In this document: positions 48,870 to 64,000 of the stretch, one piece after another
Position numbering within the stretch: the first letter of the stretch is position 1
How the letters are laid out: each line of letters starts with the position of its first letter
Assembly: GCF_902506555.1 (NCBI RefSeq)
Contig: NZ_LR732707.1
Span: forward strand, 2,131,290 to 2,195,289
DNA length: 64,000 bases
DNA from: Sphingorhabdus sp. 109
Lineage (GTDB): Bacteria; Pseudomonadota; Alphaproteobacteria; Sphingomonadales; Sphingomonadaceae
Reading direction: 5' to 3'
Position numbers and translations under genes: made by a program
The notes under the pieces: generated by a model
The model's input: the letters and a program-made list of their open reading frames with translations, nothing else
What the model was told of the DNA's origin: nothing
Databases searched by the model: none

Positions 48870-48885
48870 ATTTGTCCGGACAAAT
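48870..48885. promoter_or_regulatory. Operator copy 1: ATTTGTCCGGACAAAT
   Basis: Perfect 16-base palindrome between the FAD oxidase gene (minus) and the DUF3598-like gene (plus); the most symmetric of the perfect copies of the shared TTGTCCGGACAA motif. Confidence 0.85.
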
Positions 48886-49076
48886 ATAGTCATGTTGTGA
48901 TAATCCGCCGATTCTCACCCTCCCTCCAACCGCAAGTCGTTGCAACAGGAAGAGCCGGTGAGAAAATGGAGAGATAATATTGCCCGCGTCGCCCAGGATA
49001 CTGGAGCGCCGGCGAATTGCGGCTCCCGCCGGATGCGAAAATGCATCGCTATGTGAACCATATGAAGGAAATGATC

Positions 49077-49568
49077 ATGGGAATTAAACAAGATATGCCT
49101 CTGCTGGCGCGTCATGAGGGCGTCTGGGATGGCACTTATACATATTTCAATGCGCAGAACGAAAAGATCGACGAACATGCCTCCCGCCTGTTGTGCCGTT
49201 TTCCCGACGACGGTCCGGTCCCCTATCACCAGACCAACTATTACACATGGTCGGACGGCAAGACCGAGAACCGGGAATTTCCTGCAGAATATCGAGACAA
49301 GCGGGTCTGGTGGGACAATGAACTGATCAAGGGTTGGGCTGCGGAAGTGCCGCTCGATGAATATAACCGGACCGTGATGCTATATTGGCAGCGGCAGGGC
49401 GATCCCTCGCTCTATCTCTATGAACAGATTCAGATTTCCGATGACGGCCAGAACCGTTGCCGGACATGGCACTGGATTCGCGATGGCGTGCTGGAAACGC
49501 GCACCGCCATCCAGGAAAAATTTGTCACCAGAGACTGGCGCAAAATCGATGCGGAGATGGGCAACTAG
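49077..49568 (+). CDS. Possible lipocalin-like DUF3598 protein
   Basis: 163 residues from ATG 49077 (AAGGAA six bases upstream). The sequence LARHEGVWDGTYTYFNAQNE, YTWSDGKTENREFPAEYRDK, RVWWDNELIKGWAAEVPLDE and RTWHWIRDGVLETRTAIQEK has the Trp/Tyr-rich strand pattern of lipocalin-like DUF3598 or related ligand-binding barrels. No signal peptide. A role in binding a small hydrophobic substrate or intermediate of the cluster is inferred; family assignment is moderate. Confidence 0.55.
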   Translation: MGIKQDMPLLARHEGVWDGTYTYFNAQNEKIDEHASRLLCRFPDDGPVPYHQTNYYTWSDGKTENREFPAEYRDKRVWWDNELIKGWAAEVPLDEYNRTVMLYWQRQGDPSLYLYEQIQISDDGQNRCRTWHWIRDGVLETRTAIQEKFVTRDWRKIDAEMGN

Positions 49569-49690
49569 AGCGGCAGAACCTGTCCTGACCGTCTAAAAAT
49601 ATCGATGGGCGCCCGGCAGCGACATATGAACGTCACCGCCGGGCCGCCATTTTCCGGTTTAGGGTCCAGAGCCGCGTTTATACCGTTGCC

Positions 49691-50500
49691 CTAGCCTCTG
49701 AAATTGTCCGGAGTCACTTCCGAGGAGCGCTCCGCTCCGACGATTGTGCAACTTGCCTGCATCCACCGCAGGTTCATTCCCACACGACTGGCATCGATAT
49801 CGGCCCAGCTGTAGCTGACCGCCTTGTCCGGATTTTCCGGCTTGTGCACATAGAGCACCATGCTCGGCCGGTTGGTGCTCGGTTTTGGCCAATATACCGC
49901 CCGCATCCGCAAGATCAGCGGATCCGTTCCCGTATCACCGCCGCCAACAAGGACCCGGCCGCCCTGGTCATGCAGGTCGAGCTTCTGGGCAAACAGCCAA
50001 TCGGCGCTACCATCAGCCTTGGGCGCAACCTTCTTCACCGCCGCCCAGCATTGGACCGGACGCGCCCGCTTGAGAAGCGTCTCCTCGCCATTGGCCAGCC
50101 GCAGAGTGATGCCATTGTGTGTGACGCGGGAAATCTGGTAATCCTGACGGCAGAGTTTCCTGTTCTGTACCGCTGCCAGTTTCCAGCCTTTTTCGCCCCG
50201 CTCAAAAAAGCGTTCGCAATCGCCGACGGACAGAATGTCACGATCCTTGCCATGCGCCACTGTGATCGGCTGTGGCGCGGCCTTTTCCTTTCCATAAGCA
50301 TCGATGCTTTGCAGCTTCATCCCGTCCTCGGCGCTGGAGATTCGAAAGGACATCCATGGCGGTGGCGTGCGGCCGGCATCGGCTTCGAAATAGGCATGCT
50401 CTTCGTTTGTGAAGGTTCCGGCGAGCAGATCCTCCAGCTTCTCCGGTTCTGCAGAACCGCTATCGATGGCAAGGGCAGACAGGGTGGCAAGCAAGAACAT
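49691..50500 (-). CDS. Unknown periplasmic protein of the palindrome-linked cluster
   Basis: 269 residues from the ATG at 50500, which gives a signal peptide (MFLLATLSALAIDSGSA) with GGAG nine bases upstream; an ATG at 50515 would lie only five bases from the operator with no ribosome binding site. Cys residues are spread in pairs (DCERFF, KLCRQDY, QCWAAV, ASCTIV). Strand-rich, no named domain recognised (a CpcT/CpeT-like barrel is possible). Divergent from the aminotransferase, each with its own operator copy. Confidence 0.55.
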   Translation of the reverse strand: MFLLATLSALAIDSGSAEPEKLEDLLAGTFTNEEHAYFEADAGRTPPPWMSFRISSAEDGMKLQSIDAYGKEKAAPQPITVAHGKDRDILSVGDCERFFERGEKGWKLAAVQNRKLCRQDYQISRVTHNGITLRLANGEETLLKRARPVQCWAAVKKVAPKADGSADWLFAQKLDLHDQGGRVLVGGGDTGTDPLILRMRAVYWPKPSTNRPSMVLYVHKPENPDKAVSYSWADIDASRVGMNLRWMQASCTIVGAERSSEVTPDNFRG

Positions 50501-50520
50501 GGTCAGATTCTCCATAATAT

Positions 50521-50532
50521 TTGTCCGGACAA
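50521..50532. promoter_or_regulatory. Operator copy 2: TTGTCCGGACAA
   Basis: Perfect 12-base core, 20 bases upstream of the start of the minus-strand secreted protein gene; binding here would overlap the ribosome-binding region or transcription start. Confidence 0.8.
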
Positions 50533-50681
50533 CTCTATCACGGGATCAAATAATCGCAACCGGGATGTTTTCCGTCAGAGCTCGGTCATTTTGGGATCTG
50601 ACCGACGGCGAACTTTTTCGTGCACCATAAGTGCCGGAAGCGGAAATGCGATTGCATTGAGACGGAAATTGCACGAGGCAT

Positions 50682-50693
50682 TTGTCCGGACAA
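50682..50693. promoter_or_regulatory. Operator copy 3: TTGTCCGGACAA
   Basis: Perfect 12-base core 34 bases upstream of the aminotransferase gene (plus). Confidence 0.8.
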
Positions 50694-50727
50694 GATTATG
50701 TTTCACAGATCATGAGAGCGGCGACCT

Positions 50728-51938
50728 ATGCATTGGGAAAATATTCTGGCAACTCGTGCATCGCGGCTCAAGGCTTCCGAGATACGGGAATTGCTGAAGC
50801 TGATAGGGCAGCCGGGTGTCATCTCCTTTGCAGGCGGCATTCCGGATGGCGCATTATTTCCGGTGGCGGAATTCCAGCGGGCCTTTGCGGCCATGTGCGA
50901 AGGCGAAAATGCCTCCGCCGCCTTGCAATATGCGACAAGCGAGGGGCATCTTCCCTTGCGGCAGTGGATCGTCGGGGAGATGGCAAAGCTGGGGATTCCT
51001 TGCGATAGCGGCAATATCATCATCACCTCCGGCTCCCAGCAAGCCCTTGATTATCTCGGCAAGCTGTTACTGTCGCCCGGTGACACCGCGCTGGTCCAGT
51101 GGCCCACCTATCTCGGGGCGTTGAGCGCTTTCAACGCCTATGAGCCAGTCTATGACCGCCTCGAAACCGGCGCCTTGCGCCCGGCAGAAAGCTACCGGCA
51201 GGCAGCCAGTGGCGGCCGCGTGAAATTCGCTTATCTGTCCTCCGAATTTTGCAACCCGACTGGCGAGAGCATCGACAGGGAGGCAAGAATACAGCTGCTC
51301 AATCTGGCCCGTGATCTGGATATCGCCATCATCGAGGACGCGGCCTATCAGTCGCTGCGCTATGATGGCGAAGTCATCCCGCCGATCCTCGCGCTGGACA
51401 TAGAACGCGAAGGCAGCATTGAAGCCACCCGAACGCTCTATTGCGGCAGCTTTTCCAAGACACTTTCGCCGGGATTGCGGGTCGGCTGGGTATGCGGCGC
51501 AAAATCCGTGATCTCCCGCCTTGTGTTGATGAAACAGGCATCAGATCTGCATTCCGGTGTCGTCAACCAGATGGCGGTGGCCGATGTTGCAACCAGAGCT
51601 TCGACAAGCAAATCGAAAAGATCCGGCCCGTCTATCGCCAGCGGCGCGATAGCATGCTGCAAGCCCTGTCCCGGGAAATGCCGGCCGGTATCAACTGGAC
51701 CCAGCCAGAAGGTGGCATGTTCATCTGGCTGACCCTCCCAGATTTTATGGATAGCGTGGACCTCTTGGCAGATTCGCTCAAATCAGAGAAAGTCGCCTTC
51801 ATTCCGGGCAGCGCCTTCTTCGCTGACCGATCGGGCGCGAACAGCCTGAGGCTGAGTTTCTCCAACAGTTCCGAAGAAAATATCGAACAAGGGATTGCGC
51901 GACTGGGCAGAGTGATCCGACAGGCGCTTGCATCCTGA
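50728..51938 (+). pseudogene. PLP aminotransferase class I/II, frameshifted
   Basis: The first frame (50728 to about 51590) encodes the N-terminal two thirds of a fold-type I aminotransferase of the 2-aminoadipate/MocR-domain type: GVISFAGGIPDGALFP, ITSGSQQALDYLGKLL, EFCNPTGESI, IIEDAAYQSLRYDGE and PLP-lysine region YCGSFSKTLSPGLRVGWV. Near 51588-51592 the proper sequence jumps to the -1 frame (NQSFDKQIEKIRPVYRQRRD ... PEGGMFIWL ... IPGSAFF, ending at 51938). A one-base deletion explains it. Either a real inactivation or an assembly error; joined, the product would be about 403 residues, normal for the family. Confidence 0.8.
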
Positions 51939-52022
51939 AACAGCGCTTTACCAATCAGGGCGTGAACGAGGTGACCGGGAGACCGACTGGCGCACCGCAA
52001 TCTGCCCCCGCCGACCAACCGC

Positions 52023-53075
52023 CTATCTAATGGTTGTCATATTTATCAGCTCGACTTGCGGGGTTAGATATCCGTCGCGGCAAGGCTCGGCCTTTGACAG
52101 GTCGGTCGAGAGATATTTTGCATTATTATCGGCAAATACCGTAGCCACAGCGCGGCATTGGCCGCTGGCGTCCGGTTGTTGCTGCAGCGCGACCTTGATC
52201 GCCGCCAGAAGATTGCAACCACTGGATATCCCGACTCCGAAACCGAGCACGCGGCTCAATTTCCGGGCCATGAGAATGGCGTCACCGTCGCATATGGCAA
52301 TCACCGGATCGAGATCGTCCAGCTTGACAATTTCGGGGATGAATTCGTCCGACACGCCCTGAATTCTGTGGTGTCCCACTTTATAGCCGGTCGACAATGT
52401 CGGGGACTCGGTCGGCTCAACCGGATGCACGGAAATGCTGGCATCCTGCTCTTTCAGATAGCGGCCGACACCCATGACCGTTCCGCCGGTTCCCACACCT
52501 GCCACAAAGCCGCCCAGACGTGCGCCATCGCTCGCAAGCTGCGCCCAAAGTTCGGGGGCAGTGGCTTCATAATGGGCGTCGCAATTGTCTTCATTCGAGA
52601 ACTGGCGAGGCAGGAAAGCCCCATCCCTGCGCCCCAGTTCTTCAGCCATCTCGATCGAGCCAAGAAAGCCGCCCTGTTCCTTGGACACAAGAACCAGATC
52701 AACGCCGTGACTGGTCAGAATGGCACGCCGTTCCACGCTCATCCAGTCGGGCATGAAGATTGTCACCGGATGGCCCAGCGCGGCGCCGATGGCGGCCAGG
52801 GCAATACCGGCATTGCCGCTGGTTGCCTCGGCGATGCGCTGCCCGGGCTTCAGGGCACCGCTCAGCGTCGCCTTCTCCAATATATTCAGCGCCATCCGGT
52901 CCTTGATACTGCCGGAGAAATTATACATTTCCGCTTTAGCATAAACCGTTATGTCACGATCTTCGACACGAACGTCTATCCGAGCCAATGGCGTATGGCC
53001 GATGAGGCCGCTTAACGCACAAAACCTGTCTTCTGTCTGACGCCCGACTTGATCCAGCACAAATATCTCCCTCAA
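52023..53075 (-). CDS. Cysteine-synthase-fold PLP enzyme
   Basis: 350 residues, fold-type II. PLP-lysine motif NFSGSIKDRMA, substrate loop EATSGNAGIALAAIGAALGH, Gly-rich phosphate loop GVGTGGTVMGVGRYL and SSGCNLLAA late. Family members include cysteine synthase and cystathionine beta-synthase; some in catabolic clusters act as beta-eliminating or beta-replacing enzymes on other amino acids. The acceptor site is not diagnostic by eye. No copy of the TTGTCCGGACAA palindrome precedes it, though it lies within the cluster. Confidence 0.85.
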   Translation of the reverse strand: MREIFVLDQVGRQTEDRFCALSGLIGHTPLARIDVRVEDRDITVYAKAEMYNFSGSIKDRMALNILEKATLSGALKPGQRIAEATSGNAGIALAAIGAALGHPVTIFMPDWMSVERRAILTSHGVDLVLVSKEQGGFLGSIEMAEELGRRDGAFLPRQFSNEDNCDAHYEATAPELWAQLASDGARLGGFVAGVGTGGTVMGVGRYLKEQDASISVHPVEPTESPTLSTGYKVGHHRIQGVSDEFIPEIVKLDDLDPVIAICDGDAILMARKLSRVLGFGVGISSGCNLLAAIKVALQQQPDASGQCRAVATVFADNNAKYLSTDLSKAEPCRDGYLTPQVELINMTTIR

Positions 53076-53262
53076 GGTTAAGCGGATAATATCGGCGCTG
53101 GCTTTCGCGGTATCATTATAAAAAGTGGCTGTTTTTCGTACTAGACCGGGATATTATTTTAGTAAAATCAATATTGTTCAAATTTTTTGATGGAATTGAC
53201 CATGGTTGCTCATCAGCCTTGGTAACCGGATATCTGCGCTGCGCGGGATGAAGACACAGCGC

Positions 53263-53304
53263 GCCCGTGCCGGAGACGGATCCGATCCCGGGACCGGCAC
53301 GGGC
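53263..53304. other. Strong intergenic hairpin
   Basis: GCCCGTGCCGG and CCGGCACGGGC make a perfect 11-base stem between two minus-strand genes. No T run follows, so it may halt RNA only partly or protect the upstream message. Confidence 0.5.
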
Positions 53305-53314
53305 CGTTCTCAGG

Positions 53315-54070
53315 CTATTCTGCCGGAGGTTCGAACAGTCCGGCATCGATTTCGCCATTGACCCGCGTATCCGTCCAGAACACCTCGTTCGACTTGCGCC
53401 CGTCATAATAAAGCGTGACATGCCGAGCCTGCAGCCAGCGGGGATTTTCCAGAGTGACGAAATCATCATAGGTCCGGTGGTGCCAGCCCTTGGGTGTGCG
53501 GAATCCCATCATGCGGATGGCGTGGCTTTGCTGGTCGATACCGAACAATGTCTCGCCTCCTTCGGGATCGGTGAGTTGAACCATGTAGAGCGCGTGGCCC
53601 GCGATCGCATCATCGGCCAGTCGGGTTGCCGTGAAGCCGGGCTTTCCGGCCTGACGGATGATCCCGAAGCCGAAATTGCTCGCCCAGAATTTTTCCGCCT
53701 CTGCCTTCGGAACGATGCCCCGCTCGGTCCAGGTCGTCTGCCCGTCAAAGCCGACCTCGAACAGTATCTTCGCGCCCGATCTGGCGATGATCCGCACCTT
53801 GCCATCGGCACCATGGAAAATCTTCCGATCGGGATCAAACACCCGCCACATCCGGTAATCGTCGGCAATCGAGCGGGGTTCATGCCCCTCGGGACCATAG
53901 AATATCGCACGACCTGAAAGGCTCAGGCTTTTCGCATTGGCCCAGCCATCTCCGCCCGCGGCTTCCCGTGCCAACGCCAATATCCCGCTGCCGGACAAAT
54001 CGCTTTGCGCCTGCAGGTCAACCGGGGACCAGATCAGGACCATCCACATCATTATCAGTAATCGATACAT
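53315..54070 (-). CDS. Unknown periplasmic LolA-like protein
   Basis: 251 residues. Signal peptide (about 1-22, ending LQAQ) and a strand-rich domain with alternating pieces such as LSLSGRAIFYGPEGHEPRS, ILFEVGFDGQTTWTERG and DDFVTLENPRWLQARHVTLY, a pattern like outer-membrane lipoprotein-carrier (LolA/LolB-like) folds. Precise family not recognised. AAGGAAAAG precedes the ATG, and operator copy 4 begins 14 bases upstream of the start. Confidence 0.6.
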   Translation of the reverse strand: MYRLLIMMWMVLIWSPVDLQAQSDLSGSGILALAREAAGGDGWANAKSLSLSGRAIFYGPEGHEPRSIADDYRMWRVFDPDRKIFHGADGKVRIIARSGAKILFEVGFDGQTTWTERGIVPKAEAEKFWASNFGFGIIRQAGKPGFTATRLADDAIAGHALYMVQLTDPEGGETLFGIDQQSHAIRMMGFRTPKGWHHRTYDDFVTLENPRWLQARHVTLYYDGRKSNEVFWTDTRVNGEIDAGLFEPPAE

Positions 54071-54084
54071 TCAAGCTTTTCCTT

Positions 54085-54098
54085 TTTGTCCGGACAAA
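54085..54098. promoter_or_regulatory. Operator copy 4: TTTGTCCGGACAAA
   Basis: Perfect 14-base palindrome in the short gap between the LolA-like gene (minus) and the flavin amine oxidase gene (plus), so one site could control both directions. Confidence 0.85.
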
Positions 54099-54124
54099 TT
54101 ATCCTTGCCCTGCGGAGGCTGATA

Positions 54125-55558
54125 TTGTCAATTCCCGCTATGGAAACCGAACATCGATTCGCCATGCCCCGCCGCGCCTTTGTCGGCGGCCTGAGCGCGT
54201 CGCTCATCTCATGCGCCGCGCCCCGCAGTTCGTGGAGCACAACGACCGCCGACGTCATCATCATCGGCGCCGGCCTTGCGGGGCTGCACGCCGCCCATTT
54301 GATCGAAAAGGCCGGATATAAGGCCATCCTTCTCGAAGCGAACAACCGGACCGGCGGGCGGCTGCATACATTGGATGACTTGCCCGGACGGCCGGATGCC
54401 GGCGGCATTCAGGTTGGTGCCGGCTATGACCGCTTCCGTGCTATCGCTGACCGACTGGGCGTCGAACGTTACGTCCCGCCCCCTTCTCCGCGCGGGTCGC
54501 TGTATAATATCGGCGGTCAAAGCCTGACCGCCGCCGACTGGCCCGTGTCGCCCGCGAATAATCTGGCTGCAACCGAAAAGTCGATCCATCCCGACGGCCT
54601 CCTTTTCTCCTATCTGGCGGCTCTGCCCGTCTTTGAAAATACAGGAGACTGGATGACAGCAGCGGCCCTGAAGCTGGACATCAGTTTGCGCGATTATCTG
54701 GTGGCACAGGGCGCATCTGCCGAAGCGTTGCGTCTAATTGGGGCGAACCTGAACGGCAACAGTCTTGACGAGCAGTCCGCGCTCCATATGGCGCGCAGCC
54801 TGGCGATATTCCGGGCAGGCGGAACTGGCCCGACCCGCTATGTCCGGGGCGGCTCCCAGCGGATGACCGATGCGATGACCAGCGCGCTCCGCAGCGACAT
54901 CATCCTCGACAGCAATGTCGTTGCGATCGCCGGAGATGGCAATGGCGCGGAAGTCACGCTGGCCGATGGCCGCAAATTTGGCGCGCGCCAGGCAATCAGC
55001 ACGATACCCTTTTCGGTGCTGCGTACGGTCCGGCTCAGTGCCCCGCTGCCGACCGCCGTTCAGAACAGTATCGCGCAGCTCGCTTATACCCGCGCCAGCT
55101 TCGCTTATCTGCTGGCCGACGACCCTTTCTGGAAACAGGACGGATTGCCGGAGACGATCTGGAGCGATGATCCGATACTGGGCCGGGTGTTCGTGCTCGG
55201 AGAAGACCCGCCGATGCTGAAAGTCTGGACCAACGGATCGGGCGCCGATCTGGTTGACGCGATGGATCCGGAAGCGGTCGGCGCTGCGATGATCGCCAAA
55301 ATCGAAAAGGCGCGTCCGTCCGCACGGGGCAAGCTGAAATTTCTCCGCTTCGTCAGCTGGCAGCAAAACCCGTTTGCCCGGGGCGTCTATCACCATATAG
55401 GAACCGGCCAGGGTGCTGCTCTTGCGGAAACAGTCGCGTTTCAAGGGGATCGCATCCACTTTGCCGGCGAGCATATGGCGCGTGTAGCATCGGGCATGGA
55501 AGGGGCTCTGGAAAGCGGCGAACGCGCCGCACTGCGGGCGCTCGCCGGATTATCGTAA
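54125..55558 (+). CDS. Exported flavin amine oxidase-like protein
   Basis: 477 residues from a TTG at 54125, chosen because GGAGG lies six bases upstream; later in-frame ATGs (54140, 54164) lack one. The N-terminus has a twin-arginine-like signal (MPRRAFVGGLSASLISCAA). FAD-binding Rossmann motif DVIIIGAGLAGLHAAHLIEKAG, the amine-oxidase GG motif EANNRTGGRLHTLDD and the C-terminal FAD strand IHFAGEHMARVASGMEGALESG are present. Monoamine-oxidase-type enzymes oxidise amines or amino acids; substrate unknown. Periplasmic location is inferred from the signal. Confidence 0.85.
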   Translation: MSIPAMETEHRFAMPRRAFVGGLSASLISCAAPRSSWSTTTADVIIIGAGLAGLHAAHLIEKAGYKAILLEANNRTGGRLHTLDDLPGRPDAGGIQVGAGYDRFRAIADRLGVERYVPPPSPRGSLYNIGGQSLTAADWPVSPANNLAATEKSIHPDGLLFSYLAALPVFENTGDWMTAAALKLDISLRDYLVAQGASAEALRLIGANLNGNSLDEQSALHMARSLAIFRAGGTGPTRYVRGGSQRMTDAMTSALRSDIILDSNVVAIAGDGNGAEVTLADGRKFGARQAISTIPFSVLRTVRLSAPLPTAVQNSIAQLAYTRASFAYLLADDPFWKQDGLPETIWSDDPILGRVFVLGEDPPMLKVWTNGSGADLVDAMDPEAVGAAMIAKIEKARPSARGKLKFLRFVSWQQNPFARGVYHHIGTGQGAALAETVAFQGDRIHFAGEHMARVASGMEGALESGERAALRALAGLS

Positions 55559-55580
55559 GGCAACAGCGCGTTCGCCCGCC

Positions 55581-56693
55581 CTATTCCGTCCAGCGACTGA
55601 CGCCTTCCATCATCGCCTTCATCTCCGGTCCGGTTTCGGGCAGTTGTTCGCGCGGCAGATCCATGTGGTTCAGGGGGAATTCCTGTACATATTGCCGGAA
55701 GACAGGCTGCACCATATCCAGCGCGTAATTGGGGATTTTCCGCCCTTTGCGAAATTCCGCGATCGGAATTTCGGCTTCGATGATCCCGTCCTGGTCGAGA
55801 CTCGGATCCTTGGCGAGAATATTGCCCTTGGGATCGACGATGATCGACTCACCGGCGCGATACTGGTCGGTGGACGGGAATGCGATATTCGTCATGGTCG
55901 AATAGAAATTGTTGATCCGCGCCATCGCAAGAACATCGTCCTCCGCGAACAGAGTGGCCGTACGGATCATGATCTCGGTGCCGCGCATCGCAAAGGCGGC
56001 AAAGATGAACGGGTCCATCTGCACCGTGCTGACCGCGATATTGCCATATTCGGTTTGCAGCACGGGGAATTCCTCTTCCGGTCCGTATAGCGCCCGATAT
56101 TTGTCGCGCACCGCTTCGATCGTGGTCGTGGTAATCTCGCGATCCGGATAGATGCGCTTGATATTGCGTGATTTCCAAAATGCTTTCACAAGCTTCCCGT
56201 CGCGTCCGATCACCGCGTTTATGCTCAATATATGGCCCGGCCAGTCGTCGTCGGTCGCATAGGTGCCGAAGATCAGATAGGTATCGCAATCCCTGGCGAT
56301 CTTGCCCAGCCGCTCGGTTTCCGGTCCCGGGACCTTCACGGTATATTTCAGCTTGTCGGTGCGGCTGCCGGCGGAATAGCCGGTCAGCGGGAATTCATGA
56401 TAGAGCAGGAAGTCGGGCTTTTTGCCGGTCGTGCAGGCCTTTTTGGCGATCGCTTCCATATGCGCCAGATTATGTTCGAGCCCGTCGGCTACCGTCGGGA
56501 AATCGGACAGCGAGTCGACGGTTGTCTGGAGCACTTTCACCACGACCTTGTCTTTCGCCAGCGGCACCGTCGGATAGCTGCCGTCCGGCTGCACCAGCAG
56601 CGGTTCAGCGGCGTCCACCCGGTCTGCAAGTCCGGCCGAAGCGGCCAGCGATACCGGCACGGCCAGCGCCATCATCATCTGTCTCATATTCAT
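55581..56693 (-). CDS. Periplasmic nitrilase-fold protein lacking the catalytic Cys
   Basis: 370 residues. Signal peptide (1-29, ending VDAA). The carbon-nitrogen hydrolase fold is clear: catalytic Glu100 (LLYHEFPLTGYS), Lys174 (AFWKSRNIKRIYP), YGNIAVSTVQ where the Cys strand should be, GESIIVDPKGNILAK late. At the Cys position (about residue 224) there is Val, and no Cys lies nearby; its only Cys are near residues 87 and 136. Normal amidase/nitrilase chemistry is therefore unlikely. It follows two TonB-dependent receptors but a strong terminator lies between. Confidence 0.8.
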   Translation of the reverse strand: MNMRQMMMALAVPVSLAASAGLADRVDAAEPLLVQPDGSYPTVPLAKDKVVVKVLQTTVDSLSDFPTVADGLEHNLAHMEAIAKKACTTGKKPDFLLYHEFPLTGYSAGSRTDKLKYTVKVPGPETERLGKIARDCDTYLIFGTYATDDDWPGHILSINAVIGRDGKLVKAFWKSRNIKRIYPDREITTTTIEAVRDKYRALYGPEEEFPVLQTEYGNIAVSTVQMDPFIFAAFAMRGTEIMIRTATLFAEDDVLAMARINNFYSTMTNIAFPSTDQYRAGESIIVDPKGNILAKDPSLDQDGIIEAEIPIAEFRKGRKIPNYALDMVQPVFRQYVQEFPLNHMDLPREQLPETGPEMKAMMEGVSRWTE

Positions 56694-56758
56694 TTCCGTC
56701 TCCTATAGTTTTTTGTGCAGATGCTCCCGACGGCCAGGTTCCGGTATTCTGCAGGCGC

Positions 56759-56792
56759 AAAAAAAAGAGGCTCCGGAAATCCCGGAACCTCT
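56759..56792 (-). terminator. Rho-independent terminator between receptor and nitrilase-fold genes
   Basis: On the minus strand AGAGGTTCCGG, five-base loop, CCGGAGCCTCT, then eight T, just after the stop of the downstream receptor gene. Confidence 0.85.
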
Positions 56793-56827
56793 GATTCTAA
56801 CGTTCATTTCTGGCGCATTATCCAGAT

Positions 56828-59272
56828 CTAATATTTGGCCGAAAATACCACACCGAAACGACGACCGGGCCGCAGGCCGGCGGTGAAGTTCCGCTTGAAG
56901 GAATCATTGCCGTCGGCGTAGCGCAAGATCTGCGCCACGGCATCCTCGTCGGTCAGGTTTTTGACATAGCCCTGAATCTTGAAATTCTCGTTCTCGACAC
57001 CGATGCGGAAGTCGGCAACGGCGGATCCGCCGGTCTTTGCCAGATTATGAACCTGGGCAAAGCTGGAAGAAACCACGCTGACATTGGCGCCGGTGAAGAA
57101 AGTCCAGTCACCCGCTCCTATCGGCATCCGATAGTCGATGTCAGCGAAAATCTGATGGACCGGCGCGCGCGGGATTTTCTTGCCCTCAATAGAACCGAAC
57201 AGAGACTGGCAACCGGCTTCGTCCGGGAACTCGTCTCCGGTGGAGCAATTGACCAGTCCGTCATCCAGCACGTCATTCAACACGCCCTGGTTCTCGTCAA
57301 AGCCGGACTTGAACTTGCTGTCCGCCAGCGCGTAATTGGCGGTGAATGTCAGATTGTCGCTGGGCCGGGCCACGACTTCCAGTTCCATGCCGATAACCCG
57401 TGCCTTGCCCGCATTGACCACTGCGGAAACAACGCTGGTCGGCGACTGGACATTCTGGGTCAGCTGATAGCCACTGATCGTGTTGTGAAAGGCCGCGAAA
57501 TTGACCGTCAGCGCGCGGTTGAGAAACTGGTTCTTCGAGCCGATTTCAAACGCGTCAACATCCTCTGCTTCATAAGACGGAACGCCGGCTTGAATCGCGG
57601 TCACGCCGTTGAAGCCACCGGGTTTCTGGCCCTGTGCGAAAGAGGCATAAAGCAGATTGTCCGGTGTCGCCTGCCAGCCAAGCAGAACGCGCGGCGAGAA
57701 TTTCTTGAAGGTGGTTCCGACGCTTACCGGGGTAGCCGGCGGATCACCGGCATTGCGGGCGATGGTCGTCTGTTCGACCTTCTCTTCGGCATAGCGCCCT
57801 TCCACACTCAATGTCAGAGTCTCGGTGAGATCGAAGCTGGCCGCACCGAATAATGCCCAGTTGCGAATGTCGTAATTATTCTGGTTACGCGGCACCACAA
57901 CAACGCCAGCCCCGGCCGGATCGGTTAGGAAGCTGAAGAAACAGCCCTCAGCAGGGGAGCAAAGTTCCGCCTGGCGCGCCTGCGAATTGGCCAGAGCCAG
58001 CGCGTTGGCATTGTCCGGCAGCTCGCGGATATCCCTGCTGTCCTGAGACTGGTCGAAATAATAGCCACCAACCATGATATCGAAGCGATCGCCGTCATAG
58101 GCGAGACGCAGTTCCTGCGACCAGTCTTCGGTCTCGCCTGCACTGGCGAACGAGAAGTCGGTCGGCCCCCCGTTCACAATGCCGAGAACACCAGGGCCGG
58201 CGGCGAATGTGGCAAAGGTCGAAGCCTGGAAGCTGCCCGGGCTATAGTCACCGTCGGTAACCAGACTGTCGTTGACCTTGTTGTAACCGGTCAGCGAGGT
58301 CAGCGTCAGTTGATCCGACAGTTCATATTCCATTTTCAGACTGGCGTTGAACGTTTTGACATCGAGACCGACATCTTCGCCATTATTGGCAAACTGTCGC
58401 GTATAGTCGGTGTTGATTTCGGCCGGCTTGATCGTGCCGCAGAAATAGCGCCCACCGCCGCCATAAAAGCTTCCGTTATCGAAATAGCAATTATTGTCGC
58501 TGGCGCTGGTCGAGAAAATCGCCGGCTGGCCGTCTTCTGTACGATTATAATATGTACGGAACTGAGCGGTAAACGGCCCCCCGTCGTCAAAAGCAAAGCC
58601 GCCAGAAAAGGAATAGGACTTCTGCTCGCCGATATTGCTGCCGTCATACTGGTTCGTATATTCGCCGTCATTGGTGAAATAACGACCGGAGGCAAATGCG
58701 GTGATTGAATCGGTCACGGGACCGCGGATATTGGCGGTCACATCGTAACGGTCATGCTCGGAGATATCGACCGACACGCTCCCGGTCAGACGGTCGGCCG
58801 AGGTTTTCGAAATGATATTTATCGCGCCGGCATAGGTATTCCGTCCGTAAAGCGCGCTCTGCGGGCCCTTGACGACTTCGATCCGCTCGATGTTGTCGAC
58901 ATCATAGTCGCCGACCGAACCGCTGAAATAGATGCCGTCGATAAAGATCGCGACACCCGACGTACCGAGAACATTCGCCTGGCCACGAATGACCGGGCGG
59001 TTGGCGTCGCGGCCAAGGCTGTCGTCAAACGTCAGGCCGGCGGTGGTTTTCGAAATATCGGCAACATTGTTGAGCGCAAGCCTGTCAATCGATTCCGAGG
59101 TCACGACAGCAACCGCGGTCGGGACTTCCTGCAGATTTTCAGAAACCTTGCGGGCCGTCACAATGATGGTATTCGGGTCTTCGGCACCCGCAGCAGGCGC
59201 TGCCTGGGCAAAGGCCGCGGCAGGTATGAATGCCGAAGCTGTCATCAGGCAGCTGATTATGGAACGTTTCAT
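56828..59272 (-). CDS. TonB-dependent receptor (second of tandem pair)
   Basis: 814 residues. Signal peptide (about 1-24, ending AQA), TonB-box/plug start NTIIVTARKVSENLQEVP, plug domain to about residue 160 with VEVVKGPQSALYGRNTYAGAINI, then a 22-strand-type barrel ending in aromatic RFGVVFSAKY. It resembles the large sphingomonad receptors of the CirA/iron-siderophore-like group that import many organic ligands. 62 bases after the first receptor, no operator in between, so cotranscribed. Confidence 0.93.
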   Translation of the reverse strand: MKRSIISCLMTASAFIPAAAFAQAAPAAGAEDPNTIIVTARKVSENLQEVPTAVAVVTSESIDRLALNNVADISKTTAGLTFDDSLGRDANRPVIRGQANVLGTSGVAIFIDGIYFSGSVGDYDVDNIERIEVVKGPQSALYGRNTYAGAINIISKTSADRLTGSVSVDISEHDRYDVTANIRGPVTDSITAFASGRYFTNDGEYTNQYDGSNIGEQKSYSFSGGFAFDDGGPFTAQFRTYYNRTEDGQPAIFSTSASDNNCYFDNGSFYGGGGRYFCGTIKPAEINTDYTRQFANNGEDVGLDVKTFNASLKMEYELSDQLTLTSLTGYNKVNDSLVTDGDYSPGSFQASTFATFAAGPGVLGIVNGGPTDFSFASAGETEDWSQELRLAYDGDRFDIMVGGYYFDQSQDSRDIRELPDNANALALANSQARQAELCSPAEGCFFSFLTDPAGAGVVVVPRNQNNYDIRNWALFGAASFDLTETLTLSVEGRYAEEKVEQTTIARNAGDPPATPVSVGTTFKKFSPRVLLGWQATPDNLLYASFAQGQKPGGFNGVTAIQAGVPSYEAEDVDAFEIGSKNQFLNRALTVNFAAFHNTISGYQLTQNVQSPTSVVSAVVNAGKARVIGMELEVVARPSDNLTFTANYALADSKFKSGFDENQGVLNDVLDDGLVNCSTGDEFPDEAGCQSLFGSIEGKKIPRAPVHQIFADIDYRMPIGAGDWTFFTGANVSVVSSSFAQVHNLAKTGGSAVADFRIGVENENFKIQGYVKNLTDEDAVAQILRYADGNDSFKRNFTAGLRPGRRFGVVFSAKY

Positions 59273-59333
59273 TATATGGTCTCCCTGTTTCCGGCGGGCA
59301 TGAAACCGGATTTTTCACCCTGATCGATTTGCC

Positions 59334-61835
59334 CTATTTGAATGTCGCGCTCAGACGGATGCCGAACTGCCGCTTGTCGCGCAGGCCGACACGTGACCCT
59401 TCCCGGCTGAAATCAAAGAAGCCACCGGGCAGCGTGCGTGTACCAAAGCTGGTATCGGCAAAATTCTGCGCCGTTGTCGGTGCTGTTTCGTTGAACAGAT
59501 TGGTAGCGAACAATTCGAGGCCATAGCTTTCACCCCGCAGGCCAAGCCGCAGATTGACATCGGTGGCCGGCTGGACCCGCGCCACGTTCGCGTTGCTCAC
59601 ATAATATTCACCGGTAAAGAAGAGGTCGGTGCGGAAGAACCAGCGGTCGAACATATCGCCAAATGCGTCGATATTATCCTCATAGGTCGTGCCGAGCGAT
59701 ATCGTTATAGGCGGAAAGCGTGGAGCTTCCTGACCTGCAACATCGGCCGCCGAGCCAAAGATATCGCCAAAGTCGCCCGTGCCGCCAATTTCCGGGAAGG
59801 ATGCGATGGTTGAATGGATGTAGGCAAATGAACCCTGCATCGAGAAATTCTCGCTGATGTTCAGGGCGGCATCAAACTCGATCCCGTAAATATCGCTGGT
59901 AGCGCCATTCGAGACGAAATTGACCGTTCTCAGCGGATTGGGTGCATTGGGAAGCGTGTCGGCAATCGTCACGATAGACGTGTAGATTTCGTCGCTCCGC
60001 TGCATGTAGAATGCCGCCATGTTGAATGCGAAAATACCATCGGGATGCTGCTGCTTCCAGCCGATCTCATAGTTGGTGAGCTTCTCTTCACCAAAAACAG
60101 GGCTGGCACCGGGAGCCTTGGATGTCAGTTCGGCAAGTTGCGCCGCATCCAGTTCTGCCACTTCAGGGTTGAAGCCACCAGGCAGGTTGCCTCGGCTGTA
60201 GGTGGCGTACAATGTGGTGTAGTTCGTCGGCTGGTAGCGCAAAGTCGCTCGCGGCAAAAAGGCCGTTATTTTTGCGGGGGAAATCGGAGTGGCGAGACCT
60301 GCGTTGACGTCGCCAGCACGAATTTCATCTTCCTGATAGCGCCCTTCGAGCGTGATCGAGAACTGATCGTTAAATTCATAGTCTATCGACCCGAAAATAC
60401 CGAGTGTCTTTGCGCCGGACGTGAACGGCGTGGAACGGAAAATATCGTCGAAGAAAATCGGGAAGGAAAAGAAATTCGCCACGCCGCCCAGTTCCGCAAT
60501 ATCGATGTCCACATAGCTGGCACCGGCGGAGATATTCAGACTGTCATCGAGGAACGAGCCGGAAAGCCGGCCTTCGATGGTATAATCTTCGGTCTCGCGG
60601 GCGGTAAATCCGGTGAAGGATGCATCGGGTGACGTATCAAAATCGGCGAAAAAGCCGAAATTTTCCTTGTTATACCCGCCAAGGAAACTGAACTCGATAT
60701 TGTCGGTGAGATCGACACTACCGGCGGCGCTCAGGCGCAGCGCGTCCAGATTCAGTCCGAACTCGTCGACATTGGTCGGATTATATTTGAAGTCGAAAAT
60801 GGCATCGGTCGGATCGTAACGGGCATCGTTCAGGAAACCGCGGAATGCCTGAATATCGGCAAAGGACGAGTTGAGCCCGATTTCGGCCGCCGTGGGCATT
60901 CTGATCTGGCCGCGATATACCGATTCCGTACGGGTACCGTCCAGCGGCGCCGGCTGAACACTGTCATTCAGGTCAACCGTTCCATCGGGATTGAGCAGAA
61001 AGCCGCCATAATTATGATAGGCGGTACCATAAGAGGCCACAGCAGCCGCCGGTCCGTCGTCGATTTCCTGGTAAGAAGCGCGCAATTTCAAACGAAAGCG
61101 ATCGCTCGGCTCGATCAGGAGAGTGCCGTTTATCGACCATTGCTGCTCGTCGCCCAGCCGTTGTCCGGCCACAGCCACATTGTCATAATGGCCCTGCTTG
61201 TCGCTGTAGCTGCCGCCCACGCGGAAAGACAGGCCATCCATGATCGGACCTTCGACACCAGCGGCGATGCTATACTCATCACGGGTAGCGGCGGTCGCGT
61301 TAAGATGGACGCGGAATTCCTTGCTGGGGTCCTTGGTGACATAGTTGATCGCACCGGCAAATGTATTACGACCGAAGAGCGCGGACTGCGGTCCCTTGAT
61401 GACTTCTACTCGCTGCAGTTCGTTGACGCCGATGGTTTCCACCCCGCCGCTGAGATAGACACCGTCGAGGAAGACACTTGCCGTTTGCTGCAGCGGATTG
61501 CCGCTCAAGACAGAGATGCCGCGAAAGCGCGGTGTGCTGTTAATCCGGGCAAAGCCATTGGTATTCTGGCCGCCGGCCTCGACAAACGCACCCGGCGTCA
61601 CTTTGGTAATTTCGGTAATGTCTGTAAAACCGGCCTGGTCGAGCTCCTGTTCGCCGACCACGGAAACAGCCAGCGGTGCATCCAGCAATGTTTCCTCTTT
61701 CTTACGGGCAGTGACGATGATGACATTTTCGTCAGCAGCAGCTTCATATCCGGCATCCGCCTGGCTCTGGGCATATAGAGGGGTTCCAGCCAGAGTGGTG
61801 GCAGCCAGCAATGAAATTTTCAGCACGGTCTTCAT
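59334..61835 (-). CDS. TonB-dependent receptor (first of tandem pair)
   Basis: 833 residues. Signal peptide (about 1-22, ending LYAQ), TonB-box region ENVIIVTARKKEETLLDAP, plug with VEVIKGPQSALFGRNTFAGAINYV, long barrel and C-terminal KRQFGIRLSATFK. Similar in kind to the second receptor but clearly different in sequence. Operator copy 5 (61904-61923) lies about 70 bases upstream, shared with the divergent alpha/beta-hydrolase. The pair probably imports the substrate that the cluster handles. Confidence 0.93.
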   Translation of the reverse strand: MKTVLKISLLAATTLAGTPLYAQSQADAGYEAAADENVIIVTARKKEETLLDAPLAVSVVGEQELDQAGFTDITEITKVTPGAFVEAGGQNTNGFARINSTPRFRGISVLSGNPLQQTASVFLDGVYLSGGVETIGVNELQRVEVIKGPQSALFGRNTFAGAINYVTKDPSKEFRVHLNATAATRDEYSIAAGVEGPIMDGLSFRVGGSYSDKQGHYDNVAVAGQRLGDEQQWSINGTLLIEPSDRFRLKLRASYQEIDDGPAAAVASYGTAYHNYGGFLLNPDGTVDLNDSVQPAPLDGTRTESVYRGQIRMPTAAEIGLNSSFADIQAFRGFLNDARYDPTDAIFDFKYNPTNVDEFGLNLDALRLSAAGSVDLTDNIEFSFLGGYNKENFGFFADFDTSPDASFTGFTARETEDYTIEGRLSGSFLDDSLNISAGASYVDIDIAELGGVANFFSFPIFFDDIFRSTPFTSGAKTLGIFGSIDYEFNDQFSITLEGRYQEDEIRAGDVNAGLATPISPAKITAFLPRATLRYQPTNYTTLYATYSRGNLPGGFNPEVAELDAAQLAELTSKAPGASPVFGEEKLTNYEIGWKQQHPDGIFAFNMAAFYMQRSDEIYTSIVTIADTLPNAPNPLRTVNFVSNGATSDIYGIEFDAALNISENFSMQGSFAYIHSTIASFPEIGGTGDFGDIFGSAADVAGQEAPRFPPITISLGTTYEDNIDAFGDMFDRWFFRTDLFFTGEYYVSNANVARVQPATDVNLRLGLRGESYGLELFATNLFNETAPTTAQNFADTSFGTRTLPGGFFDFSREGSRVGLRDKRQFGIRLSATFK

Positions 61836-61903
61836 AAAAACAATCTCCCTTGGCGAACGGATCGCACGCTAAATCTCCCAATTGCTAAATCCCAGTGCTC
61901 GGG

Positions 61904-61923
61904 AAATTTGTCCAGACAAATTT
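61904..61923. promoter_or_regulatory. Operator copy 5: AAATTTGTCCAGACAAATTT
   Basis: 20-base palindrome with a single central mismatch (CCAG instead of CCGG) between the receptor operon (minus) and the hydrolase gene (plus); the longest symmetric copy. Confidence 0.8.
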
Positions 61924-61996
61924 TGACATTCCGAAAATTCGTGCCAGATAGTGTCGCAAAAATATCACGAACCGGAACTAGATAAGGGTGATTTAT

Positions 61997-62932
61997 ATGA
62001 ATGGATTTCCTCGCTATGCCGCGATTATGCTGGCTTTCTGCTTTTCATCGACAGCCCAGTCAGCAGCAAATCCGAACGGTCAGGCTTCGCGCACCGCCAT
62101 TGCCCCCGTCATCGAAATCGAGCGGAAATTTGTCCAGGGTCCCTTTGGCCAGGTCCATATCCGGGTTGCGAATCCGGCAGGCGAGAGCGCACGAACGCCT
62201 CTCGTGCTGTTTCATCCGACGCCTTATTCCGGTGACTATTTCACTGCATTCATGAAAAATATGAGCAACGACCGCCAGGTGATCGCCATCGACACGCCCG
62301 GCTATGGCGATTCGGATGCACCGGACTCCCTGCCGACGATTCGCGATTACGCCGAGTCCGCTGCCGCAGTGCTGGATAGCCTTGGCTTCCACCCCGGAGA
62401 CGATCTCCAAATCGACGTTCTGGGCTATCATACAGGCAGCTTGATAGCAGCCGAACTTGCCTTGATCCGCCCGCAACTGGTGCGCCGGATTGTCCTTCCC
62501 GGACTGCCCTTCTTTACCGGTGACGGACGAAAGGCAGCTTATGACCGCAATGCCAAACCGGACGAGATTGCCCAAGATGGCTCGCATCTGATTGAAAAAT
62601 GGAAATTCTCTACCGGAGCGACCAGCGTCGGTCTCTCGCTCGCACGCGGACAAGAGCATTTCAATGATGCTATCCAATGCTATCCGGATTGCTGGAAAGC
62701 CTATCATGCCGTGTTCACCTATGAATCGGACAAGCAGCTCGTAAAAATTACCCAGCCGGTTTTGCTGATGACCAATGCAGGCAGCCTCAAGGAAGAAACC
62801 GAAGCAGCGCAAAAATATCTCAGAAGAGCGGAGCTGGTCGATTTTCCGGAAATCACTCTGGGCGGTTTTGACCTGCACACGGAGGCATTGGCTGACGCGG
62901 TCCGCGGGTTTCTGGACGACGGCTCAAAATAA
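61997..62932 (+). CDS. Exported alpha/beta-hydrolase-fold protein with His at the nucleophile elbow
   Basis: 311 residues from ATG 61997 (AAGG nine bases upstream; a GTG at 61988 is possible). Signal peptide to about residue 23. Fold landmarks: TPLVLFHPTPYSGDYF (oxyanion strand), VIAIDTPGYGDSDAPD, then the elbow VLGYHTGSLIA where G143-Y-H145-T-G147 replaces the usual GxSxG, and a late LGGFDLHTEALADAV with the family His. A Ser, Asp or Cys nucleophile is thus missing. It may act by another mechanism or only bind. Divergent from the receptors. Confidence 0.8.
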   Translation: MNGFPRYAAIMLAFCFSSTAQSAANPNGQASRTAIAPVIEIERKFVQGPFGQVHIRVANPAGESARTPLVLFHPTPYSGDYFTAFMKNMSNDRQVIAIDTPGYGDSDAPDSLPTIRDYAESAAAVLDSLGFHPGDDLQIDVLGYHTGSLIAAELALIRPQLVRRIVLPGLPFFTGDGRKAAYDRNAKPDEIAQDGSHLIEKWKFSTGATSVGLSLARGQEHFNDAIQCYPDCWKAYHAVFTYESDKQLVKITQPVLLMTNAGSLKEETEAAQKYLRRAELVDFPEITLGGFDLHTEALADAVRGFLDDGSK

Positions 62933-62976
62933 AATAGTCACAAATAGCGATTGCATTGTGACAGCGCATCGGTAAT

Positions 62977-62988
62977 TTGTCCGGACAA
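62977..62988. promoter_or_regulatory. Operator copy 6: TTGTCCGGACAA
   Basis: Perfect 12-base core 18 bases before the DUF1330 gene (plus), in the 74-base gap after the hydrolase gene. Confidence 0.8.
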
Positions 62989-63006: not shown

Positions 63007-63312
63007 ATGCCAGCCTATATGATCGTAACGGCCAAGATTAAGGACCGGGACGCGTTCATCTCCGGCTATGGCGCCGCCGCCGGCGCGCTGGTTGAAAAAT
63101 TCGGCGGAAAATATGTGCTGCGCGGCCCCGGTGCCCAGTTGCTCGAGGGTGACTTTGGCGACGGCGCGTCCATGGTGATTTCCGAATGGCCAGACAAAGA
63201 CGCCGCAATCGCGTTCTGGAACAGCCCCGAATATGCAGAAGCCAAAAAACTCCGCGAAGACATCGCGGATGTCCAAGTTCTTTTAATCGAAAGCCCGAAA
63301 ATCAATGACTGA
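63007..63312 (+). CDS. DUF1330 protein (dimeric alpha/beta-barrel)
   Basis: 101 residues. Ferredoxin-like dimeric alpha/beta-barrel of the DUF1330 family: PAYMIVTAKIKDRDAFISGY, LVEKFGGKYVLRGPG, SMVISEWPDKDAAIAFWNSPEY and a final strand VQVLLIES. Such proteins bind or isomerise small organic molecules; activity unknown. GAGGAG precedes the ATG. Overlaps the VOC gene by eight bases. Confidence 0.9.
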   Translation: MPAYMIVTAKIKDRDAFISGYGAAAGALVEKFGGKYVLRGPGAQLLEGDFGDGASMVISEWPDKDAAIAFWNSPEYAEAKKLREDIADVQVLLIESPKIND

Positions 63313-63778
63313 TATTATCAAACGTACTACCCTGATGGTCCGCGATGGCGACCGTGCATCGCACTGGTATGAAACCGTGCTCGGCATGACCAAATGGATG
63401 GACACGCCGTTCACCCTGTCGGGTACGCAACTGGCCGCCGGCAAAAAAGGCGACCAGACCCGGCTGATCATTCTCAAATGTCAGGACGATCTGGTCGGAA
63501 TGATCGGCCTGCTGGAATGGCTGGATCCGAAAATGGATGCGCCGGATGAATTGCCCACCGAGATCAAGTTCGGAACCCCTGTCTTTGTGGTTGCTTCGGA
63601 AGACGCGAAAGGCGCCCTGGAAAGAGCGCGCGAGCTTGGATCGCGGATTCACTGCGAACCGCGCGAGTGGACCGTCACCGGCGCTGACGGCAAGAAGAAA
63701 GATATGATCGGCTGTTCCTTCTGGGATCTTGACGGCTATTTCTTCGAGGTGAACCAGATCGTAAAGGTGCACGATTAA
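63305..63778 (+). CDS. VOC-superfamily (glyoxalase/dioxygenase-like) protein
   Basis: 157 residues with two beta-alpha-beta-beta-beta modules: KRTTLMVRDGDRASHWYETVLGM then ELPTEIKFGTPVFVVASEDAKGALERARELG and SFWDLDGYFFEVNQI. His and Glu positions fit a metal-binding VOC fold (glyoxalase I, extradiol dioxygenase or related). Enzymatic type cannot be told by eye. It overlaps the DUF1330 gene and directly precedes the oxidoreductase. Confidence 0.85.
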   Translation: MTDIIKRTTLMVRDGDRASHWYETVLGMTKWMDTPFTLSGTQLAAGKKGDQTRLIILKCQDDLVGMIGLLEWLDPKMDAPDELPTEIKFGTPVFVVASEDAKGALERARELGSRIHCEPREWTVTGADGKKKDMIGCSFWDLDGYFFEVNQIVKVHD

Positions 63779-64000
63779 GTGACCGCAGGCGGTATGGACG
63801 CTTTCGATCAGCTGGCTGCCGACAAGCGGATTGACGACAGCGCCAACTATCAGTGGCGCGTCGCTTCACGACCGGTCGGCAATGTGGTGCCATCCGATTT
63901 CGAATGGGCAGTTACCGACATTCCCGAACCGGCCGAGGGAGAGGTTCTGCTGAAAACGCATTATCTCGGCCTCGCACCGGTCATGCGTTTCTATATGCAG
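63779..64000 (+). CDS. MDR-family NAD(P)-dependent oxidoreductase, N-terminal part
   Basis: Runs off the right edge; 74 residues are visible. It starts with GTG next to the VOC stop (an ATG at 63794 with AGGCGGT upstream is equally likely). The sequence YQWRVASRPVGNVVPSDFEW, DIPEPAEGEVLLKTHYLGLA, PVMRFYMQ is the N-terminal domain of the YncB/prostaglandin-reductase-like MDR enzymes, which reduce enones or related double bonds with NADPH. Last visible member of the cluster's plus-strand operon. Confidence 0.8.
   Translation, partial: MTAGGMDAFDQLAADKRIDDSANYQWRVASRPVGNVVPSDFEWAVTDIPEPAEGEVLLKTHYLGLAPVMRFYMQ

Follow-up and report, generated by a model that had tools for sequence, protein, structure and literature searches.

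A candidate HutC-type regulator and its putative palindromic operator mark a ~50-gene catabolic cluster in Sphingorhabdus sp. 109

We analysed a stretch of 64,000 nucleotides from the Sphingorhabdus sp. 109 genome (the window; C2:2131290–2195289 in a genome of 3.62 Mb on five contigs), in which an operator-like palindrome, TTGTCCGGACAA, recurs ahead of genes for uptake and catabolism. The window captures just the left end of a longer system: the site-bearing cluster comprises ~50 genes, from g02 (window position 47378, C2:2178667) to about g54 (~C2:2233953, 39 kb beyond the window), and it contains the gene for a GntR-type regulator, g30. The sites named in the original prediction are confirmed, and the cluster is far larger than claimed. 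We propose that g30 runs this set of genes as a regulon for the uptake and breakdown of imides or amides, and we give this reading as a whole a probability of about 0.6. Judged from sequence, the palindrome is very probably the operator of g30, and the conversion of imides into carboxylates is a tentative assignment, somewhat short of even odds. The sites, their clustering, their association with the regulator and the conservation of the cluster were all computed. Genes g01–g70 were called in 74 kb of retrieved sequence with a codon-usage script and assigned to families with Pfam.

In the window, the exact 12-mer is found five times: at 48872–48883 between g02 and g03, at 50521–50532 (5 bp ahead of the g04 start codon), at 50682–50693 (34 bp ahead of the g05 start codon), at 54086–54097 between the divergent genes g07 and g08, and at 62977–62988 (18 bp ahead of the g13 start codon). 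The site at 61908–61919, between g12 and the divergent TonB-dependent receptor gene g11, reads TTGTCCAGACAA and differs from TTGTCCGGACAA at one position. Of the six copies predicted originally, five are thus exact and the sixth carries a mismatch, with coordinates that were off by 0–4 bases. Their placement in five intergenic regions near gene starts was borne out. In the whole cluster the site lies at most 94 bp from the start codon of the nearer flanking leader gene, and at most 20 bp from it at g04, g07, g13, g38 and g50. No copy had been seen in the rest of the window; the window has no further site with 0–1 mismatch, and it has three with two mismatches (3353, 24478 and 61161). At this lax threshold of up to two mismatches the signal within the window is modest, because the nine sites (2.67 expected) were also reached in 2 of 100 shuffles.

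The genome-wide distribution of the exact 12-mer is far more skewed. Base composition predicts 0.004 copies per window and 0.2 per genome, and 5 and 9 were observed. All nine genomic copies fall within C2:2180161–2228475, a 48-kb stretch that extends 33 kb beyond the window, so the motif is not equally common throughout the genome; the chance of so short a span under random placement is ~9e-15 for a span picked post hoc. A reversed-pattern control gave one exact copy in the same genome. One-mismatch sites number three in the cluster (2193197, 2208523 and 2216072) and ten elsewhere. In a sequence logo of 79 exact sites, drawn from the cluster and from the corresponding regions of 21 relatives (genome G072 excluded), the motif grows to A-T-TTGTCCGGACAA-A-T, with A at position –2 in 96% of the sites; the resulting 16-mer is ATTTGTCCGGACAAAT.

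The original prediction expected a local regulator past the right-hand end of the window; g30 (C2:2208523–2209275, 250 amino acids), 13 kb beyond that end, fits this description. Its sole Pfam matches are the GntR domain (PF00392, 58.1 bits against a cut-off of 27) and the UTRA domain (PF07702, 73.1 bits against 23.8), a domain content that places it in the HutC subfamily; there is no FCD-type C-terminal domain, which we take to be the mark of the FadR subfamily. The protein lies well below the models of named members, with 86.2 bits against the HutC orthologue model TIGR02018 (cut-off 220) and 67 bits against PhnF (cut-off 157). The core of the motif is GT-CCGG-AC. According to the available part of PMC4494728, HutC sites mostly have 4 nt between GT and AC, and FadR sites mostly 3 nt, with 2 nt in some groups; with its 4-nt spacing TTGTCCGGACAA follows the rule for HutC operators. 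The FadR-type regulator that had been suggested is excluded, because both the domain content of g30 and the GT–AC spacing disagree with it. At g30 itself, the start codon is overlapped by a one-mismatch site, and a copy with no more than one mismatch lies near the regulator start in 7 of 20 regulators (a count without G030, G004 and G047) and, by position, in four further ones (G030, G113, G173 and G219), so that autoregulation of g30 is partly supported.

The association between regulator and motif extends across the family. Among 249 genomes of the same family, 32 genomes, from 20 of the 96 sampled genera, encode a g30 relative (E ≤ 1e-30). All 32 contain the 12-mer, 30 of them in at least two copies, compared with 16 of the 217 g30-negative genomes, fifteen of which have a single copy and one of which (G203) has four. 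For the 16-mer ANTTGTCCGGACAANT the corresponding figures are 31/32 and 1/217. The cluster gene g27 (E ≤ 1e-100) is present in 30 of the 249 genomes, all of them g30-positive, which leaves G022 and G132 with g30 and no g27. In the literature searched, the sole match to the motif string was an unrelated Drosophila paper.

Conservation was examined in the g30 neighbourhood of 22 of the 31 other g30-positive genomes, and a gene was scored as having an upstream site if a copy with no more than one mismatch lay in the 350 bp ahead of it. Much of the g21–g54 block is kept in 19 of the 22 relatives, with 1–7 exact sites in each region, often at the same divergent promoters as in our cluster; genes and sites recur together in these relatives. 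Genes g24 and g26–g29 are present in 21 relatives, g31–g35 in 17–20 and g49–g52 in 12; for genes of the window, the corresponding numbers are 19 (g10), 12 (g03 and g13), 9 (g04) and 8 (g07). Sites precede g35 in 17/17 homologues, g50 in 11/11, g37 in 15/17, g49 in 11/13 and g36 in 15/20, as well as 31 of the 35 g10-like TonB-dependent receptor genes in the relatives' clusters; in several relatives such a receptor gene sits between g37 and g38. The inner genes g21–g28, g31–g33 and g51–g54 have no upstream site in relatives. Of 832 genes called in these regions, 167 are accessory genes unmatched in our cluster; after clustering, any one group occurs in at most six genomes, and no substrate clue was seen among these groups, which were not Pfam-scanned.

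We infer binding, repression, effector, chemistry and substrate, the last of which the original prediction did not name, along the following lines. The g30 protein would bind ATTTGTCCGGACAAAT at roughly twelve promoters and most probably keep the ~50 genes repressed until its UTRA domain takes up an intermediate of the pathway. Because the sites lie so near the start codons, the data suit repression by obstruction of the promoter or of early transcription, which, by analogy with the family, an inducer would lift by binding to UTRA. TonB-dependent receptors may import the compound, and its breakdown would begin in the periplasm. Cyclic imide and amide bonds would be hydrolysed by the PuuE-like deacetylase-family proteins g23, g47 and g48, the isochorismatase-family protein g49, the amidase g26 and the nitrilase-family proteins g09 and g40, to give branched di- and tricarboxylic acids. 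Two modules could finish the degradation. One resembles itaconate degradation and consists of the CoA transferases g31 and g32, the acyl-CoA dehydrogenase g33, the RipB-like MaoC hydratase g34 and the RipC-like, CitE-like lyase g35; the other (g51–g54) combines a LeuCD-like hydratase (g51/g52), a hydroxymethylglutaryl-CoA (HMG-CoA)-lyase-like protein (g53) and a CoA transferase (g54, recognised by its similarity to g31 and g32). The simplest route would lead from a cyclic imide through a half-amide to an alkylmaleate or alkylsuccinate, followed by hydration and C–C cleavage.

The family matches behind this scheme are of different depth. For g23, g47 and g48, allantoinase PuuE (TIGR03212) is the sole NCBIfam match at E ≤ 1e-10, with 247.4, 93.5 and 111.2 bits, below the cut-off of 424.6. 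The best solved relative of g49 is N-carbamoylsarcosine amidohydrolase (100 bits), followed at 98.5 bits by 4l07 and 3ot4/3uao, presumably maleamate amidases, and g40 resembles formamidase and N-carbamoylputrescine amidase. The best curated matches of g34 and g35 are RipB (242.1 bits, cut-off 340) and RipC (227.8 bits, cut-off 375), both below threshold. Scores above the cut-off assign g51 and g52 to putative hydratase subfamilies of the 3-isopropylmalate dehydratase type (NF009116, 661.4 bits against 531, and NF002458, 214.8 against 167) and g53 to a putative HMG-CoA lyase subfamily (NF004283, 276.9 against 246); g51 misses the leuC equivalog (525 against 560). The best solved relatives of g28 are cis-aconitate decarboxylases.

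The g47–g48–g49 trio was surveyed at 16 loci, two in the same genome (L173 and L174) and 14 outside the family. Genes g47 and g48 are found at all of them and g49 at 15, so this set persists well beyond the family. At seven loci (6 of the 14 outside the family, and L174) the trio is accompanied by a LeuD/DmdB-type hydratase and a methylisocitrate-lyase-like (PrpB-like) gene, and at two (1 of the 14, and L173) by LeuCD, a CoA transferase and an HMG-CoA-lyase-like gene; of the other loci, two have only a weaker lyase match, one has a g34/g35 module and four have none of these. The lyase of the L174 type matches methylisocitrate lyases first (180 bits) and 2,3-dimethylmalate lyase 3fa3 with 148 bits.

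The same regulon could serve a substrate that is no cyclic imide, such as an aromatic compound or a natural product of the alkylcitrate or itaconate type; the hydrolases would then cleave ordinary amides or esters. The MmgE/PrpD pair g28/g29, with g28 nearest to cis-aconitate decarboxylases, the RipB/RipC-like enzymes, the PaaK-like ligase, the short-chain dehydrogenase (SDR) and the VOC proteins would agree with such a substrate, which is unlikely in our view and the best placed of the alternatives. The cluster, however, encodes seven amidohydrolase-type enzymes (g09, g23, g26, g40, g47, g48 and g49), all but g09 present in at least 12 of the 22 relatives, and C–N bonds in the substrate are therefore indicated. 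The substrate could instead be an N-rich compound such as a ureide or hydantoin: the PuuE-like proteins would open a hydantoin ring, with carbamoyl groups removed by the enzymes of the isochorismatase and nitrilase families. The exclusive PuuE match of g23, g47 and g48, the nearest relative of g49 and the likeness of g40 to formamidase and N-carbamoylputrescine amidase all point that way, but every one of these matches is far under its equivalog cut-off, and the alkylmalate/itaconate-type modules g31–g35 and g51–g54, like the DmdB- and PrpB-like neighbours of the trio, would be left unexplained. We consider a substrate of this kind rather improbable.

Several observations weigh against the proposal of a g30-run regulon for imide or amide breakdown. 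The enzyme assignments are at the level of families, several of them (g23, g47, g48, g34 and g35) far under curated cut-offs. Some leader genes have rarer sites in relatives (g30 6/19, g29 5/18, g43 5/11, g44 5/17, g13 7/11 and g38 1/15), and g41, mostly an inner gene, has one in 5/15. G132 encodes g30 yet lacks the 16-mer; its single 12-mer is far off, and only cluster remnants are present, with no site there. G217 has the 16-mer without g30. G203, of the same genus as Sphingorhabdus sp. 109, has four 12-mers with no g30 (E ≤ 1e-8) and no cluster genes at the sites; these copies were set aside as unrelated because they lack A/T flanks on both sides, cluster genes and a regulator. In G072 (L035 and L142–L156), 36 12-mers are spread over the genome, ten of them with extended flanks; a single mobile repeat was rejected as their origin because the surroundings of the 15 copies inspected are unrelated. 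Outside the family, the 16-mer occurs in 16 of 285 sampled genomes, in 15 of them as a single copy, and the check for g30 relatives covered G421 and G516. Finally, clustering fails in the five genomes with the most distant g30 relatives (G030, G038, G113, G173 and G219; 39–45% identity), because their 2–4 exact copies per genome are scattered far from the cluster. Two of them, G030 and G038, have a small cluster of g24–g29 with g30, and the idea that these smallest clusters retain the exact motif was rejected, as only one-mismatch sites are found at the cluster. In all five, a one-mismatch copy lies no more than 90 bp from g30, and their genomes hold 6–10 sites with at most one mismatch, compared with 1–2 for the reversed control. 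The scattered copies thus weaken clustering in these genomes, the site before g30 supports the pairing of motif and regulator, and the regulon, if there is one in distant relatives, is dispersed there, possibly as a dispersed version of the one described here.

Another transcription factor might bind the motif, with g30 only travelling with the cluster. G203 and G217, which carry the motif without a g30 relative, and the further HutC-type regulators encoded at L173 and L174 in the same genome would suit this explanation, which is nevertheless very improbable given the distribution of the 16-mer (31/32 against 1/217), the HutC-fitting spacing and the one-mismatch copy that still precedes g30 in the five genomes with displaced exact copies. 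It is also at odds with G421, a genome of another family whose two cluster pieces each contain the exact 12-mer: one (L179) has g26–g29 homologues beside a 34% identical HutC protein with the exact motif ~165 bp upstream, and the other (L180) has g31–g36, g40 and g46–g49. A repeated structural element (a terminator or one of the REP type) would match the scattered 12-mers of G072 and the five distant genomes, but it has a negligible chance of explaining sites that lie just upstream of start codons in our cluster and mainly before operon leaders, at the same divergent promoters, in relatives.

Within the proposed imide or amide regulon, the most specific version is a complete aerobic pathway for residues of tetrapyrrole pigments (bilins and breakdown products of chlorophyll or haem), a doubtful proposal on present evidence. 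Site-bearing TonB-dependent receptors would import the pigment and g03-family barrels would hold it; maleimides such as hematinic acid would be opened by g47/g48 (and perhaps g23) and g49. The product would structurally be a methyl-homoaconitate, suiting the homoaconitase/LeuCD-like g51/g52 and the aconitate-type PrpD proteins g28/g29; CoA-dependent lyases would cut the acid to central metabolites, and ring-reduced pyrrole units would pass through the succinate-type module g31–g35. The available part of PMC7318184 describes hematinic acid as formed by oxidation of chlorophyll and haem and as present in leaves; it refers to maleimides found earlier in senescent leaves and lake sediments and itself detected none. 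The scanned cluster genes include no recognisable haem oxygenase or known bilin enzyme, and pigment uptake is only supposed for the TonB-dependent receptors as putative porphyrin receptors; both points count against this version. The literature searched yielded no paper that connects a catabolic gene cluster of bacteria with hematinic acid or bilins, and only one paper, on aurantimycin, for DUF1838. Riboflavin catabolism, a different pathway according to the available part of PMC12746152, was set aside.

Tetrapyrrole-derived maleimides had been listed as candidates before g03 (49041–49568, plus strand) was modelled. Its relatives, 78–91% identical, are placed between g50 and g51 in other genomes, and 0 of 20 homologues have a site of their own. 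The AlphaFold2 model (pLDDT 93.5) is a ten-stranded barrel, for which the top Foldseek matches were a DUF3598 protein (2o62), BFA1 (5yvf), the Ycf58 protein 3bdr (which we take to be CpcS-like), a de novo barrel and the phycobiliprotein lyase 4tq2; nitrobindins ranked lower, and de novo barrels, LolA and lipocalins were listed as well. Identity is 12–13% to 2o62, 3bdr and 4tq2 and 9–12% to nitrobindins, with query TM-scores of ~0.57–0.64, and a profile of g03 relatives found no match among PDB sequences. The g03 protein is thus predicted to share the calycin barrel fold of phycobiliprotein lyases and nitrobindins, and a bilin or haem ligand would follow only by analogy. The fold lends modest support to the pigment proposal, because identity is 9–13% and such barrels bind many ligands.

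The remaining genes of the window are mostly consistent with the catabolic and uptake regulon that had been predicted for this interval, except that g02, g05 and g06 have homologues in only 0, 0 and 1 of the 22 relatives. Two of these are accessory: g02 (47378–48808, minus strand), an FAD-linked oxidase (FAD_binding_4 and FAD-oxidase_C), and g05 (50728–51938, plus), a class I/II aminotransferase that is frameshifted near 51590 and is either a pseudogene or an assembly error. The pyridoxal-phosphate-dependent (PALP) enzyme g06 (52023–53060, minus) lacks its own site and is probably outside the conserved regulon. Neither g04 (49691–50515, minus; site upstream in 9/9 homologues) nor g07 (53315–54070, minus; site in 6/7) has a Pfam family, and both have a signal-like N-terminus, as do g08 (54140–55558, plus), a flavin amine oxidase family protein that is probably exported, and the carbon–nitrogen hydrolase g09 (55581–56693, minus). 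They are followed by the TonB-dependent receptor g10 (56828–59272, minus), a second such receptor, g11 (59334–61835, minus), recognised by 26% identity to g10 over nearly its full length, and g12 (61988–62932, plus), an alpha/beta hydrolase that is probably exported. The DUF1330 protein g13 (63007–63312, plus) heads a same-strand run, g13–g20, that reaches past the window and includes g14 (63305–63778, plus), a VOC/glyoxalase-superfamily protein, and g15, an ADH_N_2/zinc-binding dehydrogenase (MDR) that starts within the window (63779–64000, plus) and continues for 867 bases beyond it.

By Pfam, the cluster further encodes the FAD oxidase g39, MFS transporters g17 and g38, alpha/beta hydrolases g18 and g50, the PaaK-like ligase g27, HapK-like g25, SDR g24, enoyl-CoA hydratase g22, a second zinc-type dehydrogenase (g45), VOC proteins g16 and g21, YCII protein g19, CMD protein g20, aldehyde dehydrogenase g46, DUF1838 protein g36, methyltransferase g41 and the membrane proteins g37 and g43, which have no family. 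To the right of its end lie a LacI-type regulator and a glucose-6-phosphate dehydrogenase. The g36 model is confident (pLDDT 87.6), but the structure search gave no meaningful match, and PDB searches with g39, g08 and g41 returned only broad families. Both g37 and g43 (L018:1795–2478 and L018:8326–9018) keep invariant H16, W23-L-G, R63, W152 and K156, residues that presumably recall HemJ/CopD proteins, a candidate likeness only. The methyltransferase g41 and the small protein g42 (L018:6719–8310) have counterparts in both sister clusters of the same genome, L173 (G000:C2:2386000–2405999) and L174 (G000:C2:2492500–2512499), whose g48 paralogues are 78% and 55% identical and each of which has its own HutC-type regulator. 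No perfect GT-N4-AC palindrome was found for the sister-cluster regulators (L173, L174, L178 and L181). L173 also encodes a 605-amino-acid protein with Oxidored_FMN and Rossmann domains (L173:17603–19420), a layout that we take to be that of the gut bilirubin reductase BilR and that is common to many unrelated enzymes.

One candidate regulator–operator pair thus marks a catabolic system of ~50 genes, parts of which reach another family with the same motif (G421), and the motif is a ready marker for genome mining. By itself, the hydrolase trio with interchangeable hydratase–lyase pairs would count as a new module of catabolism. If the maleimide version were true, it would show how bacteria finish off chlorophyll and bilin pigments; the available part of PMC7318184 puts the annual turnover of chlorophyll in the order of 10^12 kg. 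Regulons under HutC-type control are familiar as a class, and the literature searched, which did not cover RegPrecise, contained no description of this one, of its motif or of its pathway.

Like the HutC-subfamily regulators HutC, NagR/YvoA and PhnF (and presumably DasR), g30 combines GntR and UTRA domains with a GT-4 nt-AC palindrome and operators near start codons, but it is far under the cut-offs of the named families and accompanies an unrelated, large catabolic cluster. The predicted fold of g03 is shared with the CpcS/CpeS S-type lyases, DUF3598 proteins and nitrobindins, from which it differs by its 9–13% identity. We take the cyclic-imide hydrolase of Pseudomonas putida (polysaccharide-deacetylase type) to belong to the PuuE-like family as well; the curated model matched by the cluster enzymes is allantoinase PuuE, under its cut-off. 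The maleamate amidohydrolases NicF and Ami of nicotinate and nicotine catabolism belong, as g49 does, to the isochorismatase family, but N-carbamoylsarcosine amidohydrolase is a slightly better match for g49, and the cluster has no recognisable pyridine-ring enzyme. In the itaconate degradation systems RipABC and Ict-Ich-Ccl, RipB/Ich is nearest to g34 and RipC/Ccl to g35, which here stand beside the CoA transferases g31 and g32; g34 and g35 differ in scoring under the equivalog cut-offs, and an acyl-CoA dehydrogenase, g33, is added, which suggests a saturated, alkylsuccinate-type starting compound. The dimethylmaleate hydratase DmdAB and 2,3-dimethylmalate lyase act in the nicotinate-fermenting Eubacterium pathway. 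L174 and distant clusters similarly pair g47–g48(–g49) with a LeuD/DmdB-family hydratase and a lyase, one nearer to methylisocitrate lyases, whereas the cluster that begins in the window has LeuCD, a CoA transferase and an HMG-CoA-lyase-like protein instead.

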